DNA from: a gamma proteobacterium symbiont of Ctena orbiculata
Lineage (GTDB): Bacteria; Pseudomonadota; Gammaproteobacteria; Chromatiales; Chromatiaceae
NCBI GenBank assembly: GCA_003058495.1
Contig: QBVC01000012.1
Coordinates: 62,001-126,000 of the forward strand
Length of the DNA: 64,000 nt
Direction: 5' to 3'
Shown: piece by piece, positions 32,987 to 42,670 of the stretch
Layout of the letters: every line of letters begins with the position of its first letter
Numbering within the stretch: position 1 is the first letter of the stretch
Notes under the pieces: model-generated
Database searches by the model: none
Told to the model about the DNA's origin: nothing
The model's input: only the letters and a program-made list of their open reading frames with translations
Program-made: the position numbers and the translations under genes

Positions 32987-34504
32987 TCAGGCGGTGTTAC
33001 TGACCAGGCTGCCGAAGCGTTCGGCGGTCATGTTCAGGAAGCGCCTATTCATGGGCGTCAGCTCATTCAGTATGACTTTTACCTTCTCTGCATCCCTGTC
33101 CCGGATGGCGATATCCAGTTCTCCTGTTCCCTGCTGATTTCTCAGCCGGTACCAGACCCGGTACATTTGTGAGATCTCGTCTGTCTCCTGTTTCGATGGG
33201 AAGAGCGATTTCAGCGATTCCTCATCACTCACACCGCGAGACTCCGCGTCGTGCTCAATTCGCTGCAGGGTATTGTCCAGGGCGATTATATCCTCATCAT
33301 CGAGGTCGAGCGGGGCAAACTTCTCCAGAATCTCCCAACGAAAACGGAAGGCATACCTGAGGGTGGTCGCCAGGGCGGAAAGTTCAAGGGGAATTTCCGC
33401 CGTATTGATTGCGCCAACCTCTTCGATGAAGCCGATCTGGAAGCTGTCGATCTTTCCCTTTCTGCCCAGTCTATCGATGGCGCAGACCACCGGTTTGTAG
33501 ATCTTGTCCGATGCCGTATTGAATACGGCCTGGATCGGCTCGAATCTGCGTCCCGAACCAATTTTACGAATGACATGGAAGAGTTCGTTCTGCCAGCGGC
33601 TGTCATTTGTGCATTTCTCGATGACGTCCACGAGATCGCCCCATCTGTCCGGCTGGTCGAGGAAGTCGAAAATGTCCAATGCATCCTTGTTGGCATAGCG
33701 AATGACAGCACGGTTGAGATCTTCAATCCGGATCATGCTGTGAGGATCCTCAACACATATCTCCACCCACGGCATCAAGGGTTGTTTAAACAGGTTCTTG
33801 CGGGGAGGGCTGATGGCCTCGACTATCCTGTTGGCTATCTCCGGCAGATTCTCCTCCAGTGAGGGATTAACCGGATCGAGACCATAGAGTGGATCTTTAT
33901 TGATAAAGACCATGCGCAGGAACTTTTCAACCTCGGAGGGTCTTGCGGCGACCGCATGATAGCCTTCTATGGGATCGGGTACGGCAATCTCGGGATGGTG
34001 GAGACAGATCAGGCGATCCGCCGATGATTGCTGGCCTTCGAAAATCCCGGTCTCAAACAGGCACCAGTCCCAGTCATCACTCGGGTCCGGTAACAGCAGA
34101 ATAAACCAGTTCGCCTTGCATATCTCTGTGGTGATCTTGTCACGCCAGGGCTTGCCTGAGATATTTTCCGTAAATTCTGCCTGATAAGTGATAGCGAGCT
34201 TGTCGGCCGATTTCTTGCGCAGAATATCCACTACCGCTTTTGCGGTCTTTTCATCCTTGGCTTTGTAGGAGAAGAAGACGTTGATGGTTTTATGGGTCAG
34301 CGCAGGAAGCAGTTTGCGCAGCGACTTCAACCCATCCGCCTCGTTTGCAAGCAGATCGGCGGCACGGCGGATGTTTTCGGCTGCACCCTGGTGGCTGTTG
34401 AGATAGCTGGATATCTCCGCATCGCGCAGCAGCTGTGTCCCTGGCGAGGCGGGGTGAATGGCTATACTCGGTTCAGGGTTGATCGATTGATTGCTTCCCA
34501 TCAT
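32987..34504 (-). CDS. TIR-like domain protein
   Basis: 505 residues from ATG 34504, which has AGGAGG 9 bases upstream. After a 70-residue helical N-terminus comes a TIR-like domain (about 74-205): NVFFSYKAKD, then GKPWRDKI, ANWFILLLPDP, and DWCLFETGIFEG. E151 in DWCLFE aligns with the catalytic Glu of TIR NADases. The remaining 300 residues are charged and helical, without a family I recognise. It stands alone and is not next to an obvious sensor, SIR2, cyclase or nuclease. A role in defence or NAD-linked signalling is inferred. Confidence 0.7.
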   Translation of the reverse strand: MMGSNQSINPEPSIAIHPASPGTQLLRDAEISSYLNSHQGAAENIRRAADLLANEADGLKSLRKLLPALTHKTINVFFSYKAKDEKTAKAVVDILRKKSADKLAITYQAEFTENISGKPWRDKITTEICKANWFILLLPDPSDDWDWCLFETGIFEGQQSSADRLICLHHPEIAVPDPIEGYHAVAARPSEVEKFLRMVFINKDPLYGLDPVNPSLEENLPEIANRIVEAISPPRKNLFKQPLMPWVEICVEDPHSMIRIEDLNRAVIRYANKDALDIFDFLDQPDRWGDLVDVIEKCTNDSRWQNELFHVIRKIGSGRRFEPIQAVFNTASDKIYKPVVCAIDRLGRKGKIDSFQIGFIEEVGAINTAEIPLELSALATTLRYAFRFRWEILEKFAPLDLDDEDIIALDNTLQRIEHDAESRGVSDEESLKSLFPSKQETDEISQMYRVWYRLRNQQGTGELDIAIRDRDAEKVKVILNELTPMNRRFLNMTAERFGSLVSNTA

Positions 34505-34748
34505 CTTTGCTGCCCTCCTAGGCCCAATCAAAATTGCACCGAAACAGATCCCCTATTGAACTGAGTATAGGTAAGCGGACCACCGTGGCAATTGTGAATA
34601 TTACCGACAGAGGAGAGAGAGACCGAAAACCGGTCTCGCTGTTTTCAGGTTAACGCTCTATGCTAAACCTTAGGCTATGGGCCGATGCCCGAATCTGGTG
34701 CCATGGTTGCTTGGCTCGCCCTGGCCGTCAACTCCCTTAGGTATCGCC

Positions 34749-35344: not shown

Positions 35345-37417
35345 CTAACGCCCGAATGATTTCATTATCGCCGCTGCTACCGGCGCGTAATGGTCGATCT
35401 CCATGGTGAAGGATCCGCGGCCGTGGGTTGCGGAGCGCAGTTCCGTGGCATAGCCGAACATCTCTGAGAGCGGCACCTGATTGCGGATCGCCTTTATCTG
35501 GCCGGGCTTGTCCGAGACGGCATCGATTTCGGCCCGTCGATTGGCCAGTTGCGCCAGGACATCGCCGAGATGCTCTTCGGGGGTGAGTACCTCACAGCGT
35601 ACGATCGGTTCCAGCAGCACCGGTATCCCTTTCTCCAGGCCATCGCGCAGCGCCATGCCCGCCGCCACCTGGTAGGCCAGCGGATTGGAGTCCACTTTAT
35701 GCTCCGACCCATCGACAAGCACCACTTTGAGATCGGTTACCGGATAACCGCCGATCACCCCGCTTCGGGCCGCTTCCCGGATGCCTTTCTCCACCGCGGG
35801 GATATAGGCGGCGGAGAGGGTGTTGCCGCTGATGTTGTTTTCGAACAGCAGGCCGCTGCCGGTATCACCCGGGTGTATGTCGACGACGACATGCCCATAT
35901 TGGCCGTGACCCCCGGTCTGCCTGACGAAAAGTCCCTCCACCGCCATTGCCGGCCGGGTGAGGGTCTCCTTATAGGCGACCTTTGGATTGCCGGTGCGCA
36001 CATTGACCCCTTGCTCGCGCTTCAATCGCTCCAGCAGTACCTCGAGATGGAGTTCTCCCATGCCGGAGAGAATGGTCTGCCCGGTCTCATCGTCGGTTAC
36101 CGCCTTGAAGGTTGGATCGTCTTCCGCAAGATTGTGCAGGGCGTCGGCCAGCCGCTCATGATCCTGCGCGGTGACCGGCGCCACCGTGATCTTGATCACC
36201 GGATCGGGAAAGTTGATCGATTCGAGGACGATCGGTTTTTGCGGATCGCAAAGGGTGTCCCCGGTCACCGCGTCCTTCATCCCCAACAGGGCGGCGATGT
36301 CACCGGCGTGGATGGCATCGATATCCTCCCGGTGCTCCGCATACATTCTTTCCAGGCGCCCAACCCTTTGATTGCGCGTGTGGCGTGGATTGAGCACACT
36401 GGAGCCCGATCTCAGACAGCCCGAGTAGACGCGGGCGTAGCAGAGACGCCCGGCATAGGGATCGGTGACGGTCTTGAAGATCAGTGCGCCGAGGGGTTCG
36501 TCGTCACTGGGGGAGCGCAGCACAGGCTCACCGCTCTGCGGGTGACTGCCCTTGGTCTCGCCGATATCGAGGGGCGAGGGTAGATAGCGGATGACCGCAT
36601 CCAGCAGGGGTTGAACGCCCTTGTTCCTCAGCGCGCTGCCGCAGAGCACCGGTACGATCCTGCCGTTCAGCGTCGCGCGACGCAGTGCGCCATGGATGCT
36701 CGACTCATCCGCCTCGCCATCTTCCAGCCACAGTGACAGCAGGTCGTCATCCGCTTCGGCAAGCCGCTCGATCATCGCCGCACGGGCAGCCCCGGCAGCC
36801 TCCCTGTGTTGCGATGGTATCGCTTCACACTCTCTGTGGGCGCCGAATTCATCACGCCAGCGAATCAGCTGCAGGGTGATCAGGTCGATGACCCCTGCAA
36901 ATTCCGATTCCGCGCCCAACGGCAACTGAATCGGGATCGGATTGGCGCCGAGCTGCTCATCGATGGTGGCAACCGCATGCTCGAAGTCGGCGCCGATGCG
37001 ATCCATCTTGTTGATGAAGCAGAGACGCGGCACCCGGTAGCGGTCCGCCTGCCGCCAAACCGTTTCGCTTTGGGGTTCCACGCCCTGGGAGGCGTCGAAC
37101 ACGACCACGGCCCCATCCAATACGCGCAAGGCCCGCTGCACCTCGGCGGTAAAGTCGATATGTCCGGGGGTATCGATAAGGTTGATCTGATGCTCTTCCC
37201 AAAAGGCGGATACCGCCGCATCGACGATGGTGATGCCGCGCTCTCGCTCCTGGTCCATCCAGTCGGTGACGGTGGTGCCGCTGTCCACCGAACCCAGCTG
37301 ATGGGTGCGACCGGCATAATAGAGAATGCGCTCCGTGGTGGTGGTCTTGCCGGCGTCGATATGGGCGATCAAACCGATATTGCGCAAGCGTTCAATGGGT
37401 ACGGCTTTGGCGGTCAT
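35345..37417 (-). CDS. fusA: Elongation factor G (stand-alone copy)
   Basis: 690 residues with all EF-G domains. The GTPase motifs are AHIDAGKTTTTE, DTPGHIDFT and NKMDRIGADF. Domain IV has GGHGQYGHVVVDI and domain V ends with EMFGYATELRSATHGRGSFTMEIDHY. It is not beside rpsL, rpsG or tuf, so it is probably a second EF-G (EF-G2-like) rather than the str-operon copy. It could be specialised for recycling or slow translation. It follows dsrB across a MITE-like element. Confidence 0.9.
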   Translation of the reverse strand: MTAKAVPIERLRNIGLIAHIDAGKTTTTERILYYAGRTHQLGSVDSGTTVTDWMDQERERGITIVDAAVSAFWEEHQINLIDTPGHIDFTAEVQRALRVLDGAVVVFDASQGVEPQSETVWRQADRYRVPRLCFINKMDRIGADFEHAVATIDEQLGANPIPIQLPLGAESEFAGVIDLITLQLIRWRDEFGAHRECEAIPSQHREAAGAARAAMIERLAEADDDLLSLWLEDGEADESSIHGALRRATLNGRIVPVLCGSALRNKGVQPLLDAVIRYLPSPLDIGETKGSHPQSGEPVLRSPSDDEPLGALIFKTVTDPYAGRLCYARVYSGCLRSGSSVLNPRHTRNQRVGRLERMYAEHREDIDAIHAGDIAALLGMKDAVTGDTLCDPQKPIVLESINFPDPVIKITVAPVTAQDHERLADALHNLAEDDPTFKAVTDDETGQTILSGMGELHLEVLLERLKREQGVNVRTGNPKVAYKETLTRPAMAVEGLFVRQTGGHGQYGHVVVDIHPGDTGSGLLFENNISGNTLSAAYIPAVEKGIREAARSGVIGGYPVTDLKVVLVDGSEHKVDSNPLAYQVAAGMALRDGLEKGIPVLLEPIVRCEVLTPEEHLGDVLAQLANRRAEIDAVSDKPGQIKAIRNQVPLSEMFGYATELRSATHGRGSFTMEIDHYAPVAAAIMKSFGR

Positions 37418-37543: not shown

Positions 37544-37693
37544 ATTCAAGCCGCAAATGAACGCCAATCACCGCAAATTTTACGCGAATTTTTTATGCTG
37601 GTTACCTCATATCCATACGGGAGCATGGGAATGAGGATTCAACGAAATGATTTGCGTCCATTTGCGGTGATTGGCGTAATTTGCGGCTTGAAT
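37544..37693. mobile_element. MITE-like element, about 150 bp
   Basis: Imperfect 34-35 bp inverted ends (37544-37578 and 37660-37693), beginning ATTCAAGCCGCAAAT, differ by one substitution and one deletion. The interior (about 80 bases) has no gene. It ends 1 base before the dsrB stop. No transposase or clear target duplication is visible. It is related to the element at 46007-46164. Confidence 0.75.
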
Positions 37694-37694
37694 C

Positions 37695-38771
37695 TCAAAA
37701 CCGCAGATGGCTCGAGGCGTTAAGACTCTTTTGCTGGCCGCGCCAGTTGTCGATGTGGAACTTGGTGAACGGCAGCTCGGTCAGCTCGAAGAAGCGGGGC
37801 CAGCCGATGCGCTCCACCCAATCGTTGATCCGTTCCCAATCCTGCGCGTCCTGCTGATAGGCAGCCAAAATCCGCGTTACCACGGCAGTGGCCTCCGGCC
37901 AGCGTGGCGGATTGTTGGGGATGCCTGCGGCGACCAGTTTCTGAAAGGTCGGTCTGCCGCGGGCGTTGGAGTGGTTGCCGCCGATCCAGACCGCCAGCTT
38001 GGAGTGTTGGGGATCATTGATCTGCATCGGCGGACAGGGGGGATAACAGGCGCCGCAGCAGACACACTTGCGCTCATCGACCTCCAGCGAAGGCTTGCCG
38101 TTGACCATCGCCGGGCGGATCGCGGCGACCGGGCAGCGGGCGACCACCGAGGGGCGCTCACAGACGTTGGCCACCTGGTCGTGGTTGATCTTCGGCGGCT
38201 TGGTGTGCTGGATGTTGATGGCGATGTCACCCTGTCCGCCGCAGTTGATCTGACAGCAGGAGGTGGTGATATGGACCCGGTTCGGCATATTCCAGGCGCG
38301 GAATTCGCCGATCAGCTGATCCATCATCGATTTCACCACGCCGGAGGCGTCGGTGGCGGGGATGTCGCAGTGGAGCCAGCCCTGGGTATGGGAGATCGAA
38401 GTGACCGAGTTGCGGGTGCCGCCGACGATAAAGCCGCTGCCCTCCAGCGCCTCGATCAGCGGATCCACCTTGGCGCCGTCCGCGACCATGAATTCGATAT
38501 TGCTGCGAATGGTGAAGCGCAGATAACCGTCGGCGTAGCGGTCGCCGATCTCGCAGAGCTTGCGCAGGGTGAAGAGGTCGAGAATGCGTTGCGTGCCTGC
38601 GCGCACGGTCCATATCGCCTCCCCGCCATGGGCGATATGCTTCAACACCCCCGGCTTGGGGTCTTCATGATAGTGCCATTGACCGAAATTCCGCTTCATC
38701 ACGGGATGCATATATTGCATGCCGTCGGGACACCCGCTCTCTATGGGGACTCTGCGTTGTTTGGCTGGCAT
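37695..38771 (-). CDS. dsrB: Dissimilatory sulfite reductase beta subunit (oxidative type)
   Basis: 358 residues. It pairs with DsrA to bind siroheme and [4Fe-4S] clusters; in sulfur oxidisers the enzyme runs in reverse, from stored sulfur to sulfite. The signature TTSCCQINCGGQGDIAINIQ is the oxidative-type form. The ferredoxin insert has CVCCGACYPPCPP. ATG 38771 follows dsrA by 11 bases. No dsrE, dsrF, dsrH or dsrC follows; the next items are a MITE-like element and fusA. Confidence 0.95.
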   Translation of the reverse strand: MPAKQRRVPIESGCPDGMQYMHPVMKRNFGQWHYHEDPKPGVLKHIAHGGEAIWTVRAGTQRILDLFTLRKLCEIGDRYADGYLRFTIRSNIEFMVADGAKVDPLIEALEGSGFIVGGTRNSVTSISHTQGWLHCDIPATDASGVVKSMMDQLIGEFRAWNMPNRVHITTSCCQINCGGQGDIAINIQHTKPPKINHDQVANVCERPSVVARCPVAAIRPAMVNGKPSLEVDERKCVCCGACYPPCPPMQINDPQHSKLAVWIGGNHSNARGRPTFQKLVAAGIPNNPPRWPEATAVVTRILAAYQQDAQDWERINDWVERIGWPRFFELTELPFTKFHIDNWRGQQKSLNASSHLRF

Positions 38772-38782
38772 CGATTCGGCTC

Positions 38783-40027
38783 CTACGCTGCGCTGTTTTT
38801 ACGTTCAATCCACTTCGCGGCCTCCTGCTCCCAATTGTCCGTCCTGACATAGGAGTTCTCCCGCGGATGAACGATCATGTTGGGGTCCATGTCGATGTTC
38901 AGCGCATCAAGGAAGTTGACCAGTCCGATGCGCTCTATCATCTCTCCGATGCGTTCATGCTCCAGGGCGTTCTCGGCGAAGAAGTCGATCACCTCTTCGG
39001 CGAGTTCCACCAGGCGCTCATAGTCCTCTTCCCGTTCCAGCTTCATGAAGGGCACGATGACGGTGCCGAAGCGGTCGCCGATCTTCAGCGTGCGTTTGCC
39101 GCCGATGAGGATGCTGACGCCCCTGTCGCTTCCCGGAGATAGGGCCTTCGGCATCACATTCAGGCAGTGCATGCAGCGCACGCAGTTGCGGTTGTCCACC
39201 TTGAGGCTGTCATCCTCGTTCAACGATAGGGCATGAGTCGGGCAGCGGCTGATGACATTGTCCACCAGATAGTTGCGGCCTTTGACGGCGACATACTCGG
39301 CTACCGCCTGCTGATCCACCTGCATCTCGTCGCGCCAGGTGCCTATGACCGCAAAATCGGCCCGTTCGATGGCGTTCATGCAGTCGTTGGGACAGCCGGA
39401 CACCTTGAATTTGAATTTATAGGGAAGGGCGGGGCGGTGCATCTCGTCGAGAAAGTTGTTGACCAGCCTGCGGTGGATGTCGTGCTCGTTGGTGCAGGAC
39501 TGTTCGCAGCGGGCCGAGCCGACGCAGGATTGCGCCGTTCTGACACAGGGACCGGCCCCCCCGAGATCGAAGCCGTAGTCGTTGATCTCGTCGAAGAACT
39601 GCTGGGTGTTCTCCGTGGTGGCGCCGATGAACATGATGTTCCCGGTCTGGCCATGGAAGGTGACCAGGCCGGAGCCCCACTTCTCCCAGCTCTCCGCCAG
39701 CTGTCTCAGGCAGTCTGTGGTGTAGTAGTTGCCCGCCGGGGGCTGAACCCGCAGGGTGTGGAACTCTTTCGATCTGGGAAAAAGCTCACCCACCTCCGAA
39801 AAGCGGGGTATGATGCCGCCGCCATAGCCGAAGACGCTCACCGTCCCCCCTTTCCAATAGCCCTTGATCGTCTCGTAGGAGTGCTCCAACTGCCCGAGGA
39901 GATCATTGGTGGTCTCGCGTATGCGGGGATCTGCGTGGTGGTCGCGCAGGCGTTTTATGCCGGTGATGAAACTGGGCCACTCGCCACTCTCCAGCTGGTC
40001 GAGCATAGGTGTCTGGTGCTTATTCAT
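38783..40027 (-). CDS. dsrA: Dissimilatory sulfite reductase alpha subunit (oxidative type)
   Basis: 414 residues. The siroheme and cluster cysteines are in CVRTAQSCVGSARCEQSC and SGCPNDC, and the ferredoxin domain in CVRCMHCLNVMPKAL. YGGGIIPRFSEV and HTLRVQPPAGNYYTT are typical of DsrA. It is the first gene of a two-gene unit. Upstream is an AT-rich region with a palindrome and a divergent regulator gene. Confidence 0.95.
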   Translation of the reverse strand: MNKHQTPMLDQLESGEWPSFITGIKRLRDHHADPRIRETTNDLLGQLEHSYETIKGYWKGGTVSVFGYGGGIIPRFSEVGELFPRSKEFHTLRVQPPAGNYYTTDCLRQLAESWEKWGSGLVTFHGQTGNIMFIGATTENTQQFFDEINDYGFDLGGAGPCVRTAQSCVGSARCEQSCTNEHDIHRRLVNNFLDEMHRPALPYKFKFKVSGCPNDCMNAIERADFAVIGTWRDEMQVDQQAVAEYVAVKGRNYLVDNVISRCPTHALSLNEDDSLKVDNRNCVRCMHCLNVMPKALSPGSDRGVSILIGGKRTLKIGDRFGTVIVPFMKLEREEDYERLVELAEEVIDFFAENALEHERIGEMIERIGLVNFLDALNIDMDPNMIVHPRENSYVRTDNWEQEAAKWIERKNSAA

Positions 40028-40079: not shown

Positions 40080-40315
40080 TCCATGTTCCTATAAAAATAG
40101 TTGATTAAAACAGTATGTTTATATCACCAATGGAATAGTGCGAATTGATGTTTATTTATAGTTTTTCTATATTTTTCAGATGACTGTAGAAAAATCTTCA
40201 GAAGATCATATAATAGCCGTAATTAAATAGTGGTTTTGTGTTGCATATTAAGAGACGAGGCTTGCTTGCGGACCGCCCAGGTGAGCTGAGTAAGGCAAGA
40301 CTCGCTACCGGGTAG

Positions 40316-42670
40316 ATGAAAATGACTGCCACTGGGAACTCACACAATCGGCTTCTGCAACAGCAGCTCACCGAGATCCTCGCCGATATCGAGGGCAACT
40401 GGCCGGTACTCCCTTCGGGTATGTGGAATGCCTCAGGGGTCAGGTCGGTTTTACGCCATCTCCATGAAATGACCCGCAAGAGCCGCCAGGCCGGTCTGGT
40501 CAACATCAACAAGCTCACCCAGCTGATGGACCAGGCGATCAACGAGATCTTTCAGGAAGGGATCCAGCCCGACAGGGAAGAGATCGATCTTCTCAATCAA
40601 TACCTCGACGAGCTGAAGGCCGCGGTGGCCGCCACCGAGGCGCCGGGTAGCGGCGGGACGGCGGTGGACTCATCCTTCGAGGTGATCTATCTCCATCCCG
40701 AAAATCGGGCTCAGGATCAAATCACTGAAGCCATAGCGAAGAACGGATGGCGGGTTCTCAGCGTCCATGGTATCGAGGAACTGCGCACCGCTTTGGCGGG
40801 TGAGAAGGCCAGGGTTCTGCTTGTGGATACCGAGTACATGCAGCAGATGGGCGAAGTCAACCGCTTCCTCGACGAGCTGCGCGCGCAGAAGAAACGGCGG
40901 CCGGAACTGATCTTTCTCTCCAATCAATGCGATATCGAAATCCGTCTCGAGGTATTGCGAACAGGCGCCACCCAGTGCTTCTCGAAGCCGGTCAACATCA
41001 ACGACCTGATGTTGAGCATCAAGCAGATCATCTCGCCGGAAGTGCAGCCCCATAACCGGGTCCTGATCGTCGAGGATGACGAGTCCCAGGCGCAATTCGC
41101 GAGCGCACTGCTGCGCAAGGGTTCACTGGAAACCCTGGCCATCACCGATCCGTTGCATGTGATGGAGGCGGTAGCGCGGTTTCAGCCCGACCTTATCCTC
41201 ATGGATCTCTACATGCCCGGCGCCAACGGCATCGAACTGACACAGGTCATCCGCGAAAGGGATGAATCGCTGACCATACCCATCGTGTTTCTCTCCGGCG
41301 AGGACGACCTGGAGAAAAAGCTGTTGGCGCTCCATTCGGGGGCGGATGACTTTCTGACCAAACCGGTGAGGCCGCAACATCTGCTGGCGACGGTGAAAAC
41401 CCGCATCAACAGGGCCAAGGCGATATTCGCCGCGGGGGTCAAGGGCCATATCGATCATCCAACCGGTCTCCGCAACAGAAGACAGCTGTTGCAGCAGCTC
41501 GATCTTTGCAGCTATGAGATGGCTAGCAAAGACTCGATATGCGCACTGTTTTACATCACCCTCGCAGATCAGGAGCAAAATCCCCATGACCTCGAGAGCG
41601 ATGAACTGAATACCCTGCTGTTGGATATCGCCGTCCTCGCGGAAACCCTATTCGGCAAGCGCGACTTCATCGCCAGAACCGACAAACAGAGTCTGGGAAT
41701 ACTGCTGCAGCGTAAAGCGGAGGCGGATGTCGAGGCCCTTGGCAGCGCGCTCTGTGAACAGCTCAATGAGGCGCTCGCCGGCGATTCCACATCCCAGGAT
41801 GCGCAGCGCTTCGGTGTCGGTTTGGAGCTGATAGACGCCGATCCGCTGAGCGCCTATGTCCACCTCTCCCATGCGGAGGCTGCAGCCCTGCAGGCCTATC
41901 GGGGGGGGGAGGAGGGCTATCTGCGTTATCAGGAGCCGAGCGGCGCTGCCGAGGCCCATGATACGGCCAGCGACGATTTCCAGAAGCATCAATTTGCGAC
42001 TGCCCTGCAGACGGGCCTGATAGAGTTCATCGACCAGCATTTCACGGCATCCCTCGATTTCGGCAAGGAGATCACGGAACTGATGCCCATGCCGGCGCCG
42101 GCGACCGATATCGTGCTGATCTCCGATGATATCTATCTCACCGCGGAACAGTATGGACTGAGCGATAGCTTCGATCAGTACATCTGTAAGAATGTGATCA
42201 AGCGCCTGGGAGATAACGCCCTGAAGGGGGATAAGACCCAGATCATCGTCCGCCTGTCCGCCCACGCGGCCAACGATGAGAAGATCCTCGAGTTCATCAG
42301 AACCGAGTTGCGCAACCTGCAGCTGGTAGGCACAGGTTTGATGGTGGAGTTCAATCTGCCCTCGCTGGCATCGAATCTGAAACAGGCACGACACTTCCTC
42401 GGCGAGCTCTCCGCCATGGGCATCGCCTCCCTGCTCGGTAATTTCGCCTGCAACGAGACAGCCTATAAGGTGCTGGCCTATCTGAAGGCCGATGGGGTGC
42501 GGCCACACATCTCGTTGATGCAGACCAGCCAGGAAAAGATCCAGGAGATCGCCACTCAGGTGCATTCACTGCATGCAAAGATAATATTGCCGAGAGTGGA
42601 ACATTTCGGTCAGATCAGCCTGCACTGGTCGGATGCGGCGGATTTTGTGCAAACAGACTACGACGATTGA
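40316..42670 (+). CDS. HPt-REC-REC regulator with degenerate GGDEF and EAL
   Basis: 784 residues. An HPt-like helical domain comes first (about 1-105), then a degenerate receiver (D171 kept but the acidic pocket lost). A complete receiver follows, with EDDES, phospho-Asp D297 (LMDLYMPG) and K349 (TKP). The GGDEF-like domain begins HPTGLRNRRQL but has lost GGDEF, and an EAL-like domain has lost the EAL motif. It probably signals through phosphorylation and perhaps c-di-GMP binding, without making or degrading it. It diverges from dsrA across 288 bases. Confidence 0.85.
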   Translation: MKMTATGNSHNRLLQQQLTEILADIEGNWPVLPSGMWNASGVRSVLRHLHEMTRKSRQAGLVNINKLTQLMDQAINEIFQEGIQPDREEIDLLNQYLDELKAAVAATEAPGSGGTAVDSSFEVIYLHPENRAQDQITEAIAKNGWRVLSVHGIEELRTALAGEKARVLLVDTEYMQQMGEVNRFLDELRAQKKRRPELIFLSNQCDIEIRLEVLRTGATQCFSKPVNINDLMLSIKQIISPEVQPHNRVLIVEDDESQAQFASALLRKGSLETLAITDPLHVMEAVARFQPDLILMDLYMPGANGIELTQVIRERDESLTIPIVFLSGEDDLEKKLLALHSGADDFLTKPVRPQHLLATVKTRINRAKAIFAAGVKGHIDHPTGLRNRRQLLQQLDLCSYEMASKDSICALFYITLADQEQNPHDLESDELNTLLLDIAVLAETLFGKRDFIARTDKQSLGILLQRKAEADVEALGSALCEQLNEALAGDSTSQDAQRFGVGLELIDADPLSAYVHLSHAEAAALQAYRGGEEGYLRYQEPSGAAEAHDTASDDFQKHQFATALQTGLIEFIDQHFTASLDFGKEITELMPMPAPATDIVLISDDIYLTAEQYGLSDSFDQYICKNVIKRLGDNALKGDKTQIIVRLSAHAANDEKILEFIRTELRNLQLVGTGLMVEFNLPSLASNLKQARHFLGELSAMGIASLLGNFACNETAYKVLAYLKADGVRPHISLMQTSQEKIQEIATQVHSLHAKIILPRVEHFGQISLHWSDAADFVQTDYDD

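Follow-up and report, generated by a model that had tools for sequence, protein, structure and literature searches.

Known dsrAB arrangements in sulfur oxidisers

The Allochromatium vinosum-type operon (dsrABEFHCMKLJOPNRS) is among the closest described systems to the locus studied here, and several genomes with extra dsrAB copies are already in print. The metagenome-assembled genomes ALJR17 and MASP15 each hold two dsrAB sets, read as a duplication in ALJR17 and as a transfer in MASP15 in the available part of that report (PMC10686091). Multiple dsrAB copies are also listed for two Thioalkalivibrio genomes, in an available text that does not show their gene contexts (PMC6382920). Thiobacillus denitrificans is described with two lone dsrA genes, and C. 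tepidum with a second dsrAB carrying a frameshift (PMC2702494, as far as accessible). Desulfopila and CG2_30_53_67 each carry one oxidative and one reductive dsrAB set (PMC7596348), and genomes with both kinds of set are likewise mentioned in the accessible part of PMC11406059. For the Riftia symbionts an ambiguous abundance pattern of DsrAB is noted in the available excerpt (PMC7787665). No account of a second dsrAB in Thiodiazotropha or Endoriftia turned up in the openly accessible main-text parts of the literature searched, nor did any description of a conserved stand-alone unit.

We analysed a 64-kb stretch of DNA (64,000 nucleotides, hereafter the window) from a gammaproteobacterial symbiont of Ctena orbiculata, which is a member of Candidatus Thiodiazotropha. 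The window holds a stand-alone dsrA-dsrB pair. The pair resembles the A. vinosum-type operon in its two subunits and cofactor cysteines, and its DsrA is 74-78% identical to named Chromatiaceae copies; unlike that operon, it has no dsrEFHC behind it, has a private upstream block and is a second copy in its genome. With ALJR17 and MASP15 it shares the presence of two dsrAB sets in one oxidiser genome, but those are two single MAGs for which the available text describes neither genus-wide keeping nor an upstream region. The lone dsrA genes of T. denitrificans also encode an extra DsrA outside the cluster (78-83% identity), as reported in the part seen, and have no dsrB partner there, whereas the window unit has both subunits. 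In Desulfopila and CG2_30_53_67, according to the accessible text, one of the two sets is reductive, while both are of the sulfur-oxidiser kind here.

The stand-alone pair and its neighbours

Both genes lie on the reverse strand. The dsrA gene (38783..40027, 414 aa) matched TIGR02064 with 605.6 bits (cut-off 392.85) and dsrB (37695..38771, 358 aa) matched TIGR02066 with 524.5 bits (cut-off 341.5). dsrB follows dsrA after a gap of 11 bp, with the dsrA start at 40027 and the dsrB stop at 37695. The initial annotation had described an oxidative-type pair here with nothing else of the dsr pathway in 64 kb, and this observation held. The pair is intact, and a tblastn search of the window with the genome's own Dsr proteins as queries returned these two genes and no other dsr gene above 40 bits. 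The pair is not part of a dsr operon, as dsrEFHCMKLJOP do not stand behind it; the copy on contig C34 of the same genome is.

The pair had also been described as bounded by a MITE-like element and fusA. Both neighbours are real: a dispersed palindromic (MITE/REP-like) element, recognised by its inverted-repeat arms, lies at 37544..37693, and an EF-G gene at 35345..37417 (reverse strand, TIGR00484, 918 bits). The element sits between dsrB and the EF-G gene, however, so that the two stand on one side of the pair. On the other side is a divergent gene for a response regulator with an EAL domain (40316..42670, forward strand, Pfam), which has a common intergenic region with dsrA and whose GGDEF match falls slightly under its cut-off. 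Among the matches listed, the palindromic element had 65 in the genome, its own two included, mostly of 27-55 bp and to the arms; it is a neighbour and stands outside the mechanism of the pair. The EF-G gene adjoins the pair in eight genomes of the genus, and also adjoins a cut copy in G016. It gave one match per genome at E 1e-250 in the ten genomes of the genus searched and none in two genomes of genus g20, and could therefore be a second EF-G specific to this lineage. Further along, at 32987-34531, lies a gene for a 514-aa protein that may act in defence or signalling, with a TIR_2 match of 25.3 bits (Pfam cut-off 28 bits); G007 has no more than partial matches to it at the corresponding place.

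The window dsrA does not lie in a viral genome: it is set among housekeeping genes, including those for gyrase A, cytochrome oxidase and EF-G. One scan of IMG/VR gave two contigs with relatives of the window copy at 73-75% identity. In the record IMGVR_UViG_3300030085_001709 (L353, 4004-5622), which is filed as viral, a DsrC-family match stands directly before a dsrA that is 75% identical to the window's, and no dsrB match was found in the 4.4 kb behind that dsrA.

A complete dsr operon elsewhere in the genome

The genome of the symbiont comprises 4.53 Mb in 51 contigs, and the window covers positions 62001-126000 of contig C8. Contig C34 holds another dsrA-dsrB, followed by dsrE, F, H, C, M, K, L, J, O and P, which makes a complete dsrABEFHCMKLJOP operon; the family-model matches of DsrM, J and P are below the curated cut-off, and DsrL was assigned by gene position and a match to an NAD(P)-binding model. 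Between the stand-alone and operon copies, identity is 69% in DsrA and 72% in DsrB. The initial annotation had left open whether the pair was a second copy or the remnant of a split operon, and had expected its partners to come from elsewhere. A search of the whole genome found the other dsrAB, dsrEFH and dsrC in the operon on C34, along with the remaining partners (DsrM, K, L, J, O and P); the pair is a second copy, and a split operon was rejected since a complete one with its own dsrAB exists on another contig. Both copies are also present in the single-contig assemblies G005 and G154, so an assembly or binning artefact was rejected as well.

Genome-wide we found one dsrE and one DsrK over the cut-off. 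DsrC-family proteins were more numerous, with five over the cut-off and a sixth, on C14, below it; the contigs concerned are C34, C9, C33, C24 and C14, and none of these proteins is on the window's contig. With one dsrE and one DsrK for two copies of dsrAB, the stand-alone enzyme would have to share its partners with the operon enzyme.

Occurrence in Thiodiazotropha and genus g20

An operon-type DsrA, 68-70% identical to the window copy, was found in all 22 genomes of the genus searched. The stand-alone DsrA was full length in 18 of them, the window's included (84-100% identity), and cut at a contig edge in G016 (87% identity); it was not found in G007, G008 and G019. Genus g20 carries both dsrAB types in all five genomes searched. 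One contig matched to its genome G040, from a Lamellibrachia anaximandri endosymbiont (L085), indicates that g20 consists of tubeworm symbionts; in the host's genus, a Candidatus Thiodiazotropha endolucinida contig (L083) was matched to G002. The initial annotation had reasoned that if this were the only dsrAB of its genome and many related species shared the stand-alone arrangement, it would be a normal lineage feature rather than a split or a duplicate. The pair is not the only dsrAB in the genome, but its presence is normal for the genus.

Intactness and selection

Over their aligned lengths, neither the 18 full-length copies of the genus nor the five of g20 contained a stop. After pairs with saturated or tiny dS had been dropped, the median dN/dS within the genus was 0.036 for the stand-alone dsrA (highest 0.126; 101 of 153 pairs usable) and 0.031 for dsrB (highest 0.058; 73 of 153), values that are rough because synonymous distances were saturated in many pairs. 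These ratios indicate that the pair is under purifying selection. In the same four genomes, dN of the stand-alone copies was 1.6 to 4.2 times that of the operon copies (12 comparisons), and this faster evolution could reflect a weaker need.

The DsrAB sequences were also aligned to 3mm5. In 85 operon-type rows 19 cysteine columns are conserved, and every one of them was kept in 12 stand-alone rows of the genus, three of g20 and six of other families. We take these conserved cysteines to be the ligands of the siroheme-[4Fe-4S] and ferredoxin clusters. Among positions near-invariant in the 85 rows (160 in DsrA, 168 in DsrB), the 12 genus rows change one in each subunit, and the g20 rows change three in DsrA and four in DsrB. 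These counts take 12 of the 18 genus and three of the five g20 stand-alone rows, because eleven close rows had been left out of the quick DsrAB tree.

A conserved block upstream of dsrA

Upstream of dsrA, at 40094..40138 on the reverse strand, lies a 45-bp block in which 31 of 45 columns were invariant over 18 genomes, compared with 4 of 82 other well-filled upstream columns. A 22-base stretch of the block had a best match of 18-22 of 22 before the 18 stand-alone dsrA genes of the genus. Before eight operon dsrA genes (six of the genus, two of g20) the best match was 11-13 of 22, not above that of shuffles; 300 shuffled upstream regions gave 12 of 22 on average and 15 at most. As the consensus was built from the stand-alone copies, their own match is by construction, and the test lies in the absence of the block before the operon dsrA genes and at the empty sites of G001 and G003 described below. 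In the upstream regions of g20 the match was 14-15 of 22, which is only suggestive with shuffles reaching 15.

The block was also sought in retrieved loci totalling about 482 kb, some of them overlapping and two from g20, with other stand-alone loci left out. Five hits were obtained, all before a stand-alone dsrA, and within these loci the block was on that ground rejected as a general regulon site. We infer that it is the putative promoter and regulator site of the stand-alone pair.

Proposed role of the pair

Most of the genus keeps the pair behind a conserved upstream region of its own, which suggests a functional second enzyme under separate control rather than a split operon. We consider it probable, at about 0.7, that the stand-alone dsrAB encodes a separately regulated oxidative DsrAB isozyme that uses the DsrC, DsrL and DsrMKJOP of the operon. 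Judged from sequence, it would be a second oxidative-type dissimilatory sulfite reductase (rDsrAB), encoded beside the operon by two genes that form a unit of their own under a putative promoter. Under a presumed switching condition this putative promoter would be turned on and an alpha2beta2 siroheme enzyme expressed. The enzyme would probably work in the direction that oxidises DsrC-bound sulfane sulfur to sulfite, with the DsrEFH/DsrC sulfur relay, DsrL and DsrMKJOP presumably supplied by the operon on the other contig. The roles assigned here to the relay, DsrL and DsrMKJOP are those generally known for the pathway. In this way the cell could change the amount or the kinetic type of its reductase independently of the rest of the pathway. 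The private block and the natural losses of the pair make such a division of labour testable.

Chromosomal sites, moves and losses

Three kinds of chromosomal site are used by the pair within the genus, each of them with the block. In eight genomes the pair lies between the response regulator and EF-G, as in the window; in four (G013, G014, G015 and G017) it stands beside a regulator 40-45% identical and without EF-G; and in six it is elsewhere, with G010 seen only in part. In five genomes with a moved pair the old site, with the regulator next to EF-G, is empty. At the two of these sites that were examined, in G001 and G003, the block was absent (12-14 of 22). G007 and G008 have no dsrAB between the response regulator and EF-G, which are neighbours 369 bp apart, and here a partial block is left (16 and 18 of 22), which points to a deletion of the pair; in the operon tree both genomes are sisters of genomes with the pair.

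The losses in G007 and G008, the absence in G019 and the faster evolution of the stand-alone copies are what one would see if the pair were a redundant copy, there for dosage or as a relic, without a distinct role and heading to loss. We think this unlikely, given the low dN/dS, the lack of stops in 18 of 18 full-length genus copies and an upstream block that was kept through relocation.

In G011 the pair comes last in a cluster of genes on one strand, after those for a molybdopterin oxidoreductase, an FeS protein, a NarJ-like protein, a ferredoxin, a thioredoxin/NHL protein, SoxY, SoxZ and a YeeE-family transporter, and other parts of such a cluster lie near the pair in G009 and G021. A similar island has been reported in lucinid symbionts, where soxY-S1c adjoins YeeE/D, dsrAB and dmsAB; in the available part of that text the dsrAB is not called a second copy (PMC11237559). 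We take it to be the same kind of island as that at the relocated site of the G001 subclade. Both clusters would suit an enzyme shifted toward another sulfur source, such as sulfane sulfur supplied through SoxYZ and a YeeE-family importer, or one working toward sulfite reduction. Against such an enzyme, SoxYZ and YeeE adjoin the pair in only three of 18 genomes (G001, G003 and G011), the YeeE gene occurs in four of the 22 genus genomes and has a stop inside in G001 and G003, and it was not found in the window's genome; the protein also groups with sulfur oxidisers. A reductive or substrate-shifted enzyme is improbable in our judgement, and the separately regulated oxidative isozyme remains the preferred reading.

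The pair did change its site within the genus, and a transposase lies downstream of it in one g20 genome (L165); no mobile-element gene was tied to the pair. Five of 72,556 plasmid records gave a match, all below 60% identity and none over more than 80% of the query. A plasmid origin was rejected, there being no close copy among these records.

Phylogenetic position and origin

Thiodiazotropha and g20 have stand-alone copies that formed one clade in the DsrAB trees (support 100/99), among the type-I sequences and in a group with Chromatiaceae, Thiothrix and Thioalkalivibrio. The initial annotation had proposed a tree to see whether the window copy groups with oxidative or other lineages, and it grouped with the DsrAB of sulfur oxidisers; the trees contained no reductive-type reference, and the copy is called oxidative for its identity to the copies of sulfur oxidisers and its place among them. 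The operon DsrAB of both genera were type II, together with families f35, f126, f85, f15 and f62 (100/98), of which f15 and f62 fell elsewhere in the quick DsrAB tree. A recent duplication of the operon copy was rejected, since a single clade of the stand-alone and operon type II copies had an AU p of 1.5e-33. L083 and L085 were left out of the trees, being the same contigs as G002 and G040, and L057 lacks the start of its dsrA. Of 80 named loci, 27 were included in the quick DsrAB tree and 25 in the DsrKL tree. Within the genus, the shallow groups of the operon and stand-alone trees agreed, and one deeper split differed and followed the chromosomal site.

In a quick tree of DsrKL the operons of Thiodiazotropha and g20 grouped with Chromatiaceae (35 rows, support 98), while a single clade of operon DsrAB, family type-I and stand-alone rows was rejected (p = 6e-99). 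With its DsrAB outside and its DsrKL among Chromatiaceae, the operon has a dsrAB with another history than its dsrKL, and most simply the operon dsrAB would have been replaced in place. The stand-alone pair could then be the family's displaced old copy, which survived outside the operon with its own promoter when the dsrAB of another lineage took its place. One clade of stand-alone and family type-I rows was not rejected in alignments of 59 rows (p = 0.565 and p = 0.344); it was rejected, however, in one of 52 rows (p = 0.0091, lnL 42 lower), and a clade of the stand-alone copies with the Granulosicoccaceae-like L084 and L087 did better than the free tree by a lnL of 13.9 (p = 0.718). A displaced copy is a possible origin, which we rate as less likely than not.

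To the other origin we give about an even chance: dsrAB alone would have come horizontally from another gammaproteobacterium into the ancestor of Thiodiazotropha and g20, or have been passed between the two. In the more careful trees the stand-alone clade is separate from the type-I clade of its own family, and the position with L084 and L087 was the best of those tested (with L084 alone, lnL was 0.28 higher than in the free tree). Five of six lone dsrAB pairs of other families, belonging to four families, formed a clade of their own in the quick tree (support 97). The position of the stand-alone clade is weakly supported, though, and neither a linked mobile-element gene nor a close plasmid copy speaks for a transfer. 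Both accounts concern the origin of the pair and are compatible with a separately regulated isozyme.

Two genera known for clam and tubeworm symbionts carry two DsrAB of different lineages (18 of 22 and five of five genomes searched), while the symbiont literature, in its accessible parts, treats DsrAB as one enzyme. Marker surveys with dsrA or dsrAB will assign a single such organism to two lineages, and if only the operon copy is used its placement will be wrong by comparison with DsrKL.

Lone dsrAB pairs in other families

Among the 80 nearest named relatives, all whose surrounding DNA was long enough had canonical operons, with L083 and L085 as the clear exceptions; several of the contigs end too early for the operon context to be judged. 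A class-wide search of 369 genomes gave 111 with a long DsrA hit, 11 of them with two (counts read by eye, fragments left out); outside the eleven stand G518, whose second hit is cut at a contig edge, and G356, with a second hit at 50%. Two of the eleven were Thiodiazotropha. As far as the retrieved stretches of the other nine show, six had a lone dsrAB pair (five families), a lone dsrA was present in two, and the last had two operons. A DsrC-family gene stands beside two of the six lone pairs. No neighbour family was common to the pairs of the genus, g20 and the other families besides dsrB and frames overlapping dsrAB, and a conserved neighbour gene was accordingly rejected as a clue to function.

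Stand-alone dsrAB pairs may tentatively be seen as a recurrent class in sulfur-oxidising Gammaproteobacteria, although we hold this to be rather less probable than not: a separately switched DsrAB of another lineage would stand beside the operon enzyme, the cell would choose between the two reductases, both running on one DsrC-DsrL-DsrMKJOP machinery, and in some lineages the second would be wired to SoxYZ/YeeE import or to a DsrC of its own.

Other additional dsr genes were seen in the same searches. Genera g4, g16 and g36 of the host's family have lone dsrA genes as well, and dsrA without dsrB in the retrieved DNA, as in Thiobacillus denitrificans, was found at L178, L180, L191, L197, L247 and L249 (several genera). 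Three loci of the host's family (L187 of G066, L188 of G073 and L200 of G026) hold a further dsrA about 50% identical. At L187 and L188, dsrB and a distant DsrL match (34-35%) come after this dsrA, and at L187 matches to DsrC, M, K and J do so too; such a locus is a different second dsr cluster. Outside the family, G354 appears to have two canonical dsr operons in one genome (L245 and L246), the second of them cut by the contig end.
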